DNA of 33,326 nucleotides, taken from assembly GCA_003327425.1 (NCBI GenBank), contig QOQW01000037.1, forward strand, positions 1-33,326. The letters run 5' to 3'. This document shows, piece by piece, positions 27,063-32,354 of the stretch. The translations under genes and the position numbers were made by a program. Origin of the DNA: Candidatus Ozemibacter sibiricus. Its GTDB lineage: Bacteria > Muiribacteriota > Ozemobacteria > Ozemobacterales > Ozemobacteraceae. Within the stretch, counting starts at the first letter, position 1, and each line of letters starts with the position of its first letter. Under the pieces are notes generated by a model. That model made no database searches and was not told the DNA's origin. It worked only from the letters and a program-made list of their open reading frames with translations.

Positions 27063-28109
27063 TCAACGACTGGCCCGCAGGGAAGCATCGTAGGCCAGCA
27101 GAGCCTTGAGATAGGCCTGCAGGTCGCTGCACGTGCCGAACAGGTTCAACAGATAGGGGACATCGAGGGGAAAGGCCTTCCCATCGATGGAGAGGGTGAT
27201 TCCCGGGTCGGCGCGCATCCGGCCGATCCGTTTGATGGTCAGGTTCTCTTCCTGGGCGCGGGCCAGGAAGGCTGGTTCGCGGGCGGGGGACACCGCCAGG
27301 ATCAACTCGTACTCCCCCATGCCGAAGACGTTGACCAGCCACAGCGGAAAGCGGATCTTCTCGGTCAGGGCGACCAGGGGCGGCGCGTAGAGATCGGGCG
27401 CGTGTTCGAAGTCGATCCCCACCCCGTTGAGATCGGCCAGGATCGCCAACCCCTGCAGCAGCGCATCGCTCGTGTCGATGGAACACGACACGAAGGGCGC
27501 CAGCGCCAGGCCTTCCTTGAGACGGGCCACCGGCTTGTACTCTTTTTCCAGGGTCGCCCACAGGCCTTTGTCGACCTGGGAGGCGATGCCCAGCAAGTTG
27601 CCCGTGCCAAGGGGGCCCGTGATGTACAAGAGATCGCCGGGCGCGCCGCCCACCCGCAGCGTGGGCTCGGCGCGAGCGATGGTTCCGAGAGCGGTACAGG
27701 TGAATCCAGGCTCGGACGCGAAGTTGGTATCGCCACCGAGGCAGTAGGTGCCATGAGCGCGCACCGCGGCATCGACACCGTTGAAGAACGCCTCCTGCCA
27801 GGCCGCCTCGGCGGTGCGCGGGAAGCTGACGGCGACCAGCACGCCGAGTGGCGAGGCCCCGACCGCGGCCAGGTCGCTGAGACTGTGGGCCACCACGTTC
27901 CAGCCCAGGATGAAGGGATCGCGGATGATCCCGAGGGCGTATTCCTCATGGATGCCATCGACGGTCGCGGCCAGCCACGACCCGTCGGCCATCCGCACGA
28001 TTTCGGCATCGGCTTGATGGGTCCGGTTGCGCTGCTGCGGATGTCGTTCCAACCGCGCGGTCAAACGGTTGATCAGCGAAAACTCCGTATACTTCTCCAA
28101 CCCAGCCAT
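27063..28109 (-). CDS. AIR-synthase-related, thiamine-monophosphate-kinase-like protein
   Basis: A 348-residue member of the PurM/ThiL/SelD fold. Matches to ThiL in order: TVDGIHEEYA in place of the TTD-VEG-HF segment, SLSDLAAVGASPLG, LGGDTNF, DTSDALLQGLAILAD and GMGEYELIL in place of the GGEDYEL box. The N-terminal GDDAA metal/ATP motif of genuine ThiL is altered to QADAE. It therefore may not phosphorylate thiamine phosphate; it could act on another substrate or have lost catalysis. GAAAGGAT lies upstream of the ATG at 28109, and a candidate extended -10 promoter is nearby. It heads the operon with the SDR (gap of four bases) and the epimerase. No thiamine genes are close, which weakens a thiamine role. 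Confidence 0.82.
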   Translation of the reverse strand: MAGLEKYTEFSLINRLTARLERHPQQRNRTHQADAEIVRMADGSWLAATVDGIHEEYALGIIRDPFILGWNVVAHSLSDLAAVGASPLGVLVAVSFPRTAEAAWQEAFFNGVDAAVRAHGTYCLGGDTNFASEPGFTCTALGTIARAEPTLRVGGAPGDLLYITGPLGTGNLLGIASQVDKGLWATLEKEYKPVARLKEGLALAPFVSCSIDTSDALLQGLAILADLNGVGIDFEHAPDLYAPPLVALTEKIRFPLWLVNVFGMGEYELILAVSPAREPAFLARAQEENLTIKRIGRMRADPGITLSIDGKAFPLDVPYLLNLFGTCSDLQAYLKALLAYDASLRASR

Positions 28110-28145
28110 GGCTGCATCCTTTCTGGAAGAACGAGTCTGCGGCCC

Positions 28146-28154
28146 ATGATACCA
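28146..28154 (-). promoter_or_regulatory. Candidate extended -10 promoter for the ThiL-like operon
   Basis: On the minus strand TGG-TATCAT (TATCAT at 28146-28151) is an extended -10 element about 37 bases before the ATG at 28109. No convincing -35 is seen. Confidence 0.45.
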
Positions 28155-28236
28155 CAGCGAGCAATGCAGGCATTCGGGGCCGATCATCCCTCAACCGCAC
28201 GGCAACATCAAAGGCATCGGGTCGGTCAGCGTGAGA

Positions 28237-28283
28237 AATTCCAACTGCAAAATGTAAGGGTTTTCCCTTACAACCTGGGAATT
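28237..28283. repeat. Nested inverted repeats upstream of the lipoprotein promoter
   Basis: An inner perfect 8-bp stem TGTAAGGG-TTTT-CCCTTACA (28253-28272) is enclosed by AATTCC/GGAATT (28237-28242 and 28278-28283). The block ends three bases before the -35 box of the next gene. It could be an operator or a hairpin that insulates the two divergent transcripts. Confidence 0.65.
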
Positions 28284-28285
28284 AG

Positions 28286-28314
28286 TTGACTGTGGGGGGG
28301 GTACATGATATATT
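28286..28314 (+). promoter_or_regulatory. Sigma-70 promoter with a G8 tract in the spacer
   Basis: TTGACT (28286-28291) and TATATT (28309-28314) are exactly 17 bases apart, and eight consecutive G (28294-28301) fill much of the spacer. The ATG of the lipoprotein gene follows at 28346. Loss or gain of a G by slippage would move the spacing to 16 or 18 and change promoter strength. Confidence 0.72.
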
Positions 28315-28345
28315 TCCTCCGCAATTTCTCCCACGGGAAGTTCGT

Positions 28346-30709
28346 ATGTTGCGAAGGATCCTGAGTTGTTGTCTGCTTGGCGCCTTCTTGTTGGCCGTGG
28401 TGTTGAACACCGGCTGTGGCGGTGGAGGCGGAGGAGGAGGCTTTTTTGCCGGTCTGGCGACGTTCGTTCTGATCGTTGCGGCCACCGGTGGTACCGCCGG
28501 CACGGCCGCGGCGTTCGCCGCCAACGTTCGCACTTCACCCCAGAGTGCTGTTGCCGCCCAGGCGGCCGTCCGGACCATCAGCATCAATGGAGACAAAATC
28601 AAGGTCAAGATCACTCCGATGAAGGACGGACAAGCCGTAGGGGCGACTCTCTATATCAATACCGCTGACTTGAAGGCCGAGGGACAGGTATTGAAGGGGC
28701 AGTCGACCGTTGAATACTCCCAGAAAGAATTCCGGGTCGAGATCGTGAGCGGCGATTCCGAGATCGTCCTCCTGAAAGGCATCAAAGGGGTAGAGGCCAT
28801 CCCCGCCGATACGAAGGTCAATGCCGCCATCGACCCCGTCGAAACCGCCAAGGCGATCACCTATGAAAAATGGGTGTCCGGCAGCCCCGACAAGAGCTTT
28901 GCGGCCTTCGAATACAATCTTGCCAAAACCACGGGCGCCGTCGCTTCCTTGACCGACCTGGCCAATACCATCCAGACCACGTTGGCCAACCACACGGCTC
29001 CTTTCACCACCCAGATCCTGGAATCGTCCACCATCCAGGACACCGCCCAGGCCAACGCCTCCGGCATCTCGAAGGACGTTCCGCCCACCACCGTCCCCGA
29101 GACCAAGACCATTTCCGACCCTGTCGAGCAACCCTCTACCCAGGTGAAATACGCCATCGCCGAGTCGACCAACACGGCGCTGACCGGCGTTCCCCTTCGC
29201 AGCCTGCGGATGGAAACCGCCCCCATGGCGCCCAGCGTGGTTCCCGTCATCGGTGGCAACACCGCCCTCAACCTCGAGGGCATGAAGAACATCCTCATGA
29301 CCGCCCTCACTGGTGGCACCCGCGTCTATGATGGCCCCGAGGTCGACAACCCCGAGATGATGGTTGCCACCTTCACCGAGACCGCCGTCTCCATCGAACA
29401 GTACCGGTACACCGTCATCTGGGGTTCCAATCCCCCTCAAATGCAGCGGAACCCTTATCCTTCCATTCGCCGAGTGCTTTCCAACATCAAGGCGCAAAAG
29501 ACGGGCGATGTCGTCACCCAAATTGAAATCGGTGCCAGTTCCACCCTTGAATTGGTCGAAATCAACGGGCAGACCGGCGCCATACTCCAACGGAATGTCC
29601 TGAAAATCGTCAACGATGGCCTTACTGGCGTCATTGGGTTCCGCGAATACAACAATCAAGGTATTTTCTACCCTGAAGCCCTGAACACCAATTGGACCTA
29701 TCGTTACACCCAAAGCGCCAGTGAAACCGTCAATGTAACCCTTAATGGCAACCTGATCGTAGATTTCGAGACCCAGGAATACGCAAATAACACCGTGGCG
29801 GAGACCATCCGTGGGCGCCTCAGCCTGTCTGGCATTTCCGGCTCCATGTCTGCCACCAAAGGCTTCTTGTACGGCCAGTATTACTACGGCACCACCCCGA
29901 TGGGATTTCCCTTCGCTCCCAAGGTGAACTTTGGGGCCTTGAATTCGGATGATGGAGCGGCCAACCTCAACCTTGGAACCACGGTGGTCATTGCCGGCTC
30001 TGGGAAATCGACCAGTGGCATTTCTCTCGACAATCTGACCATCACGCTCAATAATGTACAAAAGTCCGGTTCTGGACGAACCCTGACCTTCTCCTGCAGC
30101 AATTCCTCGGTCAACACCCTGCTCACCTACACCGGCAGCTCGCCCGAAGCCTATGGGTACATCAAATCGCTGGCCGTGGCCATCTCCAATTTCTCGTTCA
30201 ACTCGGCCAACAATCCGATGGTACCCAACGGGACGACCATCACCGTCACCAAGGTCAACACCGACAACACCACCGATACCATCACGTATACAACGGAAAA
30301 CAACCAGATCGTCCTTTCCTCGGGCAGCACCAAATTCGGTGGTGGTCGCGAGACGGTGACCAATCTGGCGAACGGCGACCTCCAGGTCCAGGGAGAGGTC
30401 ACCCTGGCCAACTCCAACGGCAAGAAGGTATCCCTGAAGTATACCGCGACCAAGGCCAAGAGCAGTGGCGACATCACGGTGACCGTGAACCTGAGCGGCG
30501 AGATCGTCACCGGAACCATCGCATTCACGCTGACCCCCAACAGCACCACCACGCTGATCACCAACGGGACGTACCAGGCGGGCAGCGTTTCCGGCACCTT
30601 CACGCTGAATCGCAATGGCACCGGCATGCTGACCATCGGCAACCAGACCCTCAACTTCGCTCTCCACGGTACCGGCTCGCCCCTGGCCTCCCTCCTTGCC
30701 CTCCAATGA
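28346..30709 (+). CDS. Large Thr/Asn-rich putative lipoprotein
   Basis: A 787-residue secreted protein of unknown function. The signal peptide ends at VLNTGC; Cys24 is the likely lipidation site although the residue at -3 is Asn, an atypical lipobox. A run of eight Gly follows the Cys as a flexible spacer. After an Ala/Thr-rich segment, the protein is rich in Thr, Asn, Val and Ser with beta-strand alternation, particularly from about 390 to the end, where short units such as GTFTLNRNGTGMLTIGNQ resemble surface beta-repeat proteins. No Cys pairs or enzyme motifs are obvious. Base composition is less GC-rich than the neighbouring genes. GGGAAG lies before the ATG at 28346. Its promoter has a G8 spacer tract, suggesting variable surface expression. 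Confidence 0.83.
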   Translation: MLRRILSCCLLGAFLLAVVLNTGCGGGGGGGGFFAGLATFVLIVAATGGTAGTAAAFAANVRTSPQSAVAAQAAVRTISINGDKIKVKITPMKDGQAVGATLYINTADLKAEGQVLKGQSTVEYSQKEFRVEIVSGDSEIVLLKGIKGVEAIPADTKVNAAIDPVETAKAITYEKWVSGSPDKSFAAFEYNLAKTTGAVASLTDLANTIQTTLANHTAPFTTQILESSTIQDTAQANASGISKDVPPTTVPETKTISDPVEQPSTQVKYAIAESTNTALTGVPLRSLRMETAPMAPSVVPVIGGNTALNLEGMKNILMTALTGGTRVYDGPEVDNPEMMVATFTETAVSIEQYRYTVIWGSNPPQMQRNPYPSIRRVLSNIKAQKTGDVVTQIEIGASSTLELVEINGQTGAILQRNVLKIVNDGLTGVIGFREYNNQGIFYPEALNTNWTYRYTQSASETVNVTLNGNLIVDFETQEYANNTVAETIRGRLSLSGISGSMSATKGFLYGQYYYGTTPMGFPFAPKVNFGALNSDDGAANLNLGTTVVIAGSGKSTSGISLDNLTITLNNVQKSGSGRTLTFSCSNSSVNTLLTYTGSSPEAYGYIKSLAVAISNFSFNSANNPMVPNGTTITVTKVNTDNTTDTITYTTENNQIVLSSGSTKFGGGRETVTNLANGDLQVQGEVTLANSNGKKVSLKYTATKAKSSGDITVTVNLSGEIVTGTIAFTLTPNSTTTLITNGTYQAGSVSGTFTLNRNGTGMLTIGNQTLNFALHGTGSPLASLLALQ

Positions 30710-30950: not shown

Positions 30951-32354
30951 ATGATCTATGTCTCAAATCACCTTTTCGCCAGATCATGGCGCAAAGCTTT
31001 TATCACCTTCAGCGCAATAGCCTTCCTCCTATGTCCAGCGTCAGCGCCCGCCGTGGACATCTATGGCCTGATGTCCCTGCCGCCCCTTCCCCCGCCTCTC
31101 GCCTCGCCATCCTATCGCCTTGCCCAGAACGCCTTTCGGCTCACTTCGACGTGGGAAGAAATGTACCGGAAATGGCTCGACGGCCAGGAGGTCGCTCGTT
31201 TCACCGGATCCCGGCAGGATGCTCGCCTCGAATGGGGCATCACCCAACGATTCGGCCTGGCGGGACATTGGCGAATCGACGGGCGTCAGGACTTTCTGAA
31301 TCGCGAAACAGACAACCTCGATCCCTTCGATTTCCGAAACCACGAAGAAGCCGACACCCTGGCCCTTCGTTGGTGGGGGAATGACGCGGCAGTAGAATAC
31401 GAGGCCAGCCGATCCACCGACCGTTTTTCCGGGCGGTTCACCCTTCATCCCAACCTGGTGAAAGCGCTTGGTTCGCAGCCCGATCTCGATTTCAGAACCC
31501 GTGCCGGCACCAACGCCCTTCGCGCCACCTGGGCCTGGAACGATCTGCAGTTCATCGGCGAAACCTCACGCAGCATCATCGACCATGCGATTCGCACGCT
31601 GAATAGCCGAATCGCTCTTGTGGTTCCGCTTCGACGTGTGGTTCGCGAACTTGGCGGCACCATTGCCGTGAACAGCCGCGATCTGGTTCAGCCCTTTTTC
31701 CGTTGGCACCGCCGATACGATCGAGGAACGGGGGTCAGCGAAAAAGACGGTCGGTTCATCTTCGGCCGCACCCAATCTGACCTGACGCTGACCACCCATG
31801 CCTTTGGCCTGACGGTGAAACGGCATCGTCGGCCCTGGTTCGTCGAGTATGCGCGCCACAGCCTGTCTGGAACTGAAACCCTCCGCAACAATCTGATCAC
31901 CCTCGACCCCCTGTTCCTTTTCGCCACCAATGAGGTCGGGACGCTGGTGAACATTCCCCAGAAATACCCCTGGTCGACCCGGATCGGCGGCAAGTTCCGA
32001 TTGCCTCGGAACTTCTCTGGGGAGTTGCAATATGCCCTTTCGGAAATCAGCTTCAACACGATACAAACCAACGATAAAATCTCTTTTTTCCGCAGGCGCC
32101 GGGAGCAATCCACAGACATTCGGGATTTCCGATACCGAGTCCATCGGTCGGAACTGGCCTTTCACCGCCCCGATCGGCACGGTGGCTGGTCGGCCCTGCT
32201 TCGCCTGCTGGTTCCACAGGAGATTGCTCGCCCGCCCAAAGAAGGGATGCCTGGGCCACCTGCTCCCGCTCCCGGGCCCGCTCCAGTAAAGGCAGAAGAA
32301 AAAATACGGGGCGGGTGGCAGCTCACCCTGGAGCGAACCTTCCTTTTCAAGTGA
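30951..32354 (+). CDS. Predicted outer-membrane beta-barrel protein
   Basis: A 467-residue protein with a signal peptide (about 1-35, ending in ASAPA before VDIYG). The mature part shows repeated alternating polar/hydrophobic strands with many Arg, Phe and Trp residues (RLEWGITQRFGLAGHWRI, TRIGGKFRLPRNFSGELQYA), acidic-basic turns, and a C-terminal strand LTLERTFLF just before the final Lys, similar to the closing strand recognised by the Bam machinery. A Pro/Ala-rich stretch (about 428-448) precedes it. No exact family is recognised. The ATG at 30951 has no strong ribosome binding site. It follows the lipoprotein gene after a terminator, and converges on bpt with only ten bases between stops. 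A porin or a surface anchor role is possible. Confidence 0.8.
   Translation: MIYVSNHLFARSWRKAFITFSAIAFLLCPASAPAVDIYGLMSLPPLPPPLASPSYRLAQNAFRLTSTWEEMYRKWLDGQEVARFTGSRQDARLEWGITQRFGLAGHWRIDGRQDFLNRETDNLDPFDFRNHEEADTLALRWWGNDAAVEYEASRSTDRFSGRFTLHPNLVKALGSQPDLDFRTRAGTNALRATWAWNDLQFIGETSRSIIDHAIRTLNSRIALVVPLRRVVRELGGTIAVNSRDLVQPFFRWHRRYDRGTGVSEKDGRFIFGRTQSDLTLTTHAFGLTVKRHRRPWFVEYARHSLSGTETLRNNLITLDPLFLFATNEVGTLVNIPQKYPWSTRIGGKFRLPRNFSGELQYALSEISFNTIQTNDKISFFRRRREQSTDIRDFRYRVHRSELAFHRPDRHGGWSALLRLLVPQEIARPPKEGMPGPPAPAPGPAPVKAEEKIRGGWQLTLERTFLFK

Follow-up and report, generated by a model that had tools for sequence, protein, structure and literature searches.

A conserved palindrome and a G8-containing spacer at the promoter of a putative lipoprotein operon in Candidatus Ozemibacter sibiricus

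The window analysed here, a stretch of 33,326 nucleotides from contig QOQW01000037.1 of Candidatus Ozemibacter sibiricus, contains a gene for a putative lipoprotein of 787 amino acids (28346–30709, plus strand, ATG at 28346), a gene for a partner protein of 467 amino acids (30951–32354, plus strand), and a divergent thiL-like neighbour (AIRS/AIRS_C; 27063–28109, minus strand), which is syntenic in a congener. The 787-residue protein begins with a signal peptide, followed by a lipobox-like sequence, LNTGC, which is atypical, and a glycine-rich tether (MLRRILSCCLLGAFLLAVVLNTGCGGGGGGGG...). It matched no Pfam family, peptide patterns retrieved no close relatives from the genome contigs, and its predicted structure (pLDDT 53) was too low in confidence for use. 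The protein had been described as a large surface-type lipoprotein and a typical variable antigen; with an atypical lipobox and no family match, it is at most a candidate for such a surface antigen. The partner was modeled by AlphaFold as an all-beta barrel, with a pLDDT of 59, and its Foldseek matches were outer-membrane barrels; we regard it, with low confidence, as a predicted outer-membrane beta-barrel. The barrel gene also stands after the lipoprotein gene in two other genomes, G004 and G005. Another Riflebacteria MAG retains part of the barrel gene at its thiL-ate locus (L067, 985–1307), where the lipoprotein gene has no match, and the corresponding locus of L068 gave no match to the operon; the operon is thus not constant in the family.

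Upstream of the lipoprotein gene, on the plus strand, lie a −35 hexamer TTGACT (28286–28291), a 17-nt spacer GTGGGGGGGGTACATGA (28292–28308), and a −10 hexamer TATATT (28309–28314), both hexamers being recovered by a sigma-70 pattern scan as well as by reading the sequence. The same scan showed that the spacer ends in the TG of an extended −10 element (TGA-TATATT; TG at 28306–28307), and a Shine-Dalgarno-like GGGAAG is located at 28335–28340. This promoter was the only sigma-70-like match in the scanned region (28110–28420); it agrees with the consensus at 10 of 12 positions and has the TG before the −10 hexamer, a quality for which shuffled sequences gave an expectation of 0.2. The TTGACT-N17-TATATT promoter therefore exceeds chance. 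A G8 homopolymer (28294–28301) follows the −35 hexamer within the spacer and stops 7 nt short of the −10 hexamer. The original prediction, that the two hexamers stand 17 bp apart with eight G between them and that only this count gives 17 bp, can be read directly from the DNA: seven G would give 16 bp and nine G would give 18 bp. Nevertheless, the extended −10 element may make a strict dependence on spacing less certain.

The same arrangement of thiL and the lipoprotein gene was found on contig C306 of the congeneric genome G002, where the orthologous promoter reads TTGACA-GGTTAAAAAGGTACGAC-TAGAAA. Its spacer has the same length of 17 nt; the letters differ, and the G-run is absent. An element located further upstream has the form TGTAAG-N8-CTTACA and ends exactly 13 bp before the −35 hexamer in both the window and G002. 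In the window, this element, which was absent from the original prediction, is a perfect 8-bp inverted repeat, TGTAAGGG-TTTT-CCCTTACA (whole, TGTAAGGGTTTTCCCTTACA; 28253–28272, no strand), and its center lies approximately 58 bp before the predicted transcription start, near 28321. An additional TTGTAAG half-site stands beside the palindrome in G002 (L034, 1501–1545), which suggests a second, overlapping operator in that genome.

We searched for the palindrome across the family. TGTAAG-N8-CTTACA occurred at two, one, and one sites in the three congeneric genomes, in which the reversed control gave none, and at no site in 21 other family genomes. When one mismatch was allowed, all eight extra matches differed in one way, by an A-to-G change or its complement, which gave the form TGTARG-N8-CYTACA; this form was thus set after the one-mismatch matches had been seen. 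Five, five, and three exact sites were found in the three congeneric genomes (n = 13), against none for the reversed control and approximately 1.5 expected by base composition. The 21 other genomes had three sites against seven for the control, which is a background level. Relaxing the R/Y form by one mismatch gave no signal above the control, and only exact sites were therefore used.

Eight of the 13 sites are orthologous. Three lie between argF and an unnamed gene, and three lie between genes for a PAS histidine kinase and a LuxR-type response regulator, each in all three congeneric genomes; the other two are the lipoprotein-promoter palindromes, present in both genomes that have this promoter. 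Neighbours of the remaining sites are a Cas10/Cmr2-type gene in the window's own genome (G000:C19:24958–24977, L032), a Cas6 gene in a congener (G001:C65:7679–7698, L033), a gene for a cNMP-binding/AAA protein (G001:C10), a PAS-kinase-like gene (G001:C152), and receiver-domain-like reading frames (G000:C37). The response regulator encoded beside the conserved site (G000:C36 locus) combines Response_reg and GerE domains, and its position makes it a candidate for the protein that would bind the palindrome. The palindrome is downstream of the likely −10 hexamer at the argF-side and PAS-kinase sites, so that the regulator would need to repress there; the place of the palindrome near the lipoprotein promoter would be activator-like, and that on the argF side repressor-like. 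These results suggest that the palindrome at 28253–28272 is likely an operator for a regulator. It is clearly the conserved feature of the window's promoter and, as a predicted control element, is better supported than the G8 tract.

We then considered how unusual the G8 tract is. One such run was observed in the window, against an expectation of 1.7 (first-order Markov) to 2.0 (independent letters), and GGGGGGGG had 339 matches on both strands of the organism's own genome; G8 in itself is therefore not above chance. For the promoter pattern TTGAC-N-TANNNT, a reversed-pattern control gave counts similar to the signal, and we therefore used the distribution of spacer lengths instead. Among the 100 matches listed for the organism's own genome, the spacer was 17 nt in 53 and 18 nt in 18, with one to seven matches at each of the other lengths. 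The 17-nt spacers among these listed matches consist of 39% G, so that G7 or longer is expected in 2 to 3% of them, and it was present in 4 of the 53 against 1.1 to 1.7 expected by the Markov model. A wider pattern admitting spacers of 9 to 29 nt gave 24 spacers with G7 or longer in the three congeneric genomes, including the organism's own. Exactly 17 nt was found in 22 of these, and the remaining two are second readings of promoters for which a 17-nt reading also exists. Runs of C7 or longer were about as common (22 in the same three genomes), nearly all in spacers of 17 or 18 nt. In orthologous promoters, substitutions alter the G- or C-runs and the length of 17 is nearly always kept; the C-run pair L114/L115, with 17 and 18 nt, is an exception. 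The genes that follow such promoters at 17 bp in the genus include phoH-, hpf-, tldD-, and serA-like genes, names which are our reading of the N-termini rather than a database result. G-runs in spacers are thus a compositional habit of this G-rich genus and are common to its housekeeping promoters; in this genus, the tracts did not stand apart from normal spacer composition as marks of contingency genes.

A different picture was obtained in sister genera. In G004, which belongs to another genus, the promoter of the homologous operon reads TTGACA-TTTTC-G12-TAGTAT, again with 17 nt between the hexamers; its lipoprotein is 31% identical to that of the window over most of the length, and its barrel partner is 40% identical. 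Other homologs of the lipoprotein gene have ordinary spacers with no G-runs. All five spacers with G9 or longer in the sister genera precede exported-looking proteins, and their lengths are 15, 16, 17, 19, and 20 nt. Lipoprotein-like genes follow three of them (G003:C6:10351–10377, spacer 15; G003:C129:37130–37157, spacer 16; G004:C338:8771–8799, spacer 17). The promoters of two related secreted-protein genes in G014 (C150:27519–27549 and C182; L212, 310–340; L213, 310–341) resemble each other and contain G9 runs, their spacers being 19 and 20 nt long; the one of these two proteins that was scanned carries DUF6531. Spacing of 17 bp thus occurs in one of these five spacers against 22 of 22 in the window's genus (P approximately 3e-4), a test that is weakened by shared ancestry and the small sample. 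Most of the sister-genus runs abut the −10 hexamer, unlike the G8 tract of the window. Assorted spacings of this kind would be expected if loci that switch had been assembled, and as a hypothesis, switching by slippage suits the sister genera better than the window's promoter.

Taken together, we favor, with a probability of roughly 0.6, an operator-regulated sigma-70 promoter whose G-run is compositional. An extended −10, sigma-70-type promoter would drive the operon for the lipoprotein and the outer-membrane barrel, and its adjustable control would most likely be a DNA-binding regulator bound to the 20-bp palindrome, whose end lies 13 bp before the −35 hexamer, a place typical for activators. 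The LuxR-type response regulator is the best candidate for this role; its gene is downstream of the PAS histidine kinase gene and has the same palindrome beside it in the three congeneric genomes. The G8 tract would result mainly from the G-rich composition of the spacer, with selection holding the length at 17; occasional slippage might change expression, yet it would not be the evolved control. Two observations count against a purely compositional origin: spacers with G7 or longer are somewhat more frequent than a Markov model predicts, and the G12 tract in the homologous operon of G004 is hard to put down to coincidence.

The alternative put forward in the original prediction, a phase-variable promoter in which slippage of the G-run shifts the spacing off and on 17 bp and so turns the lipoprotein-barrel operon off and on, retains its geometry and gains from the G12 tract that the homologous operon of G004 carries at the same 17-bp spacing. 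It is also in line with the sister-genus spacers with long G-runs, which all precede exported proteins and, at 15 to 20 nt, are less tied to 17, and it has direct precedents in porA and tp0126 (PMC7864442; PMC2791445). However, a G8 tract is short and ordinary in this genome, the congener without a G-run keeps the same spacing, and the window's tract is placed differently from most of the sister-genus runs. All G-run promoters found in the genus are at 17, which would be unexpected for a population of switching loci, and housekeeping genes carry the same feature. Because the run is compositional, is not conserved in the congener, and is shared by housekeeping promoters, we consider switching in the window's genome a minority reading and rather unlikely. 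Similar doubt applies to a broader form of this idea, in which the Candidatus Ozemobacteraceae would switch exported proteins, including the lipoprotein-barrel operon, by slippage of poly-G in promoter spacers, the window's genus having control through the response-regulator operator in addition. Still less probable, in our view, is that the G-rich spacer is kept as an element of constant length for another promoter property, such as spacer conformation, melting, or choice of start site. An hpf-type promoter with G7 at 17 bp does occur in four genomes of two genera (L101, L102, L216, and L218), and G005 and G022, with a GC content of approximately 46 to 48%, are among the carriers of this feature; the spacer of the congener's lipoprotein promoter, by contrast, is A-rich at the same length, so that a G-run is not required at this promoter.

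Comparison with known systems defines what the window shares with them. In Neisseria meningitidis, porA has a poly-G tract between the −35 and −10 hexamers and is highly expressed at 17 bp (PMC7864442; PMC2791445). Both promoters have a homopolymeric G tract between hexamers at 17 bp; for porA, however, length variation and expression states have been shown, whereas the run in the window is a G8, its genus is G-rich, and the conserved element at its promoter is the palindrome upstream. The promoter of Treponema pallidum tp0126, which encodes an OmpW-like protein, also contains poly-G, is best at 17 bp, and has a tract length reported to affect transcription (PMC7864442); the likeness to the window is that of poly-G between the −35 and −10 hexamers of an outer-membrane gene, a putative one in the window, and on the window's side it is one of geometry. 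N. meningitidis nadA with NadR combines an operator for a regulator with a repeat tract close to the promoter (PMC2791445). The nadA tract, however, is upstream of the promoter, whereas that of the window is within the spacer, where a change in its length would leave the distance from operator to −35 unchanged. The regulons of LuxR/NarL-type response regulators (Response_reg and GerE) resemble the window's system in having a palindromic 20-bp operator upstream of the regulator's own gene, as found in all three congeneric genomes; the link between TGTARG-N8-CYTACA and this regulator is one of position.

Among the titles and abstracts listed for Riflebacteria or Ozemobacter, none dealt with phase variation. 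If the window's promoter does switch, phase variation through promoter spacers would no longer be confined to the host-associated pathogens cited above but would include an environmental lineage that is uncultured, and the loci in sister genera would allow concrete tests. Should the promoter not switch, G8 spacers are to be expected before housekeeping genes in G-rich genera, and geometry alone therefore does not identify contingency loci. The palindrome, for its part, would define a small, testable regulon with sites near type III CRISPR genes as well.

Long G-runs were also noticed outside promoter spacers. In G014, runs of G11 (L207, minus strand, 307–317) and G10 (L211, minus strand, 303–312) lie within coding frames, behind a lipobox-like cysteine, and are candidate translational switches, since slippage there would shift the frame. 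Runs of G26 (L156) and G30 (L191) in G008 are located at the extreme contig ends and were disregarded as probable sequencing or assembly artefacts. In G003, a G14 run on contig C68 stands with TTGACT and lacks a convincing −10 hexamer, a G17 run lies inside a frame of 505 amino acids (L172, 217–233), and a G18 run is just upstream of a frame of 499 amino acids (L179, minus strand, 300–317); the G17 and G18 runs are both away from the contig ends.
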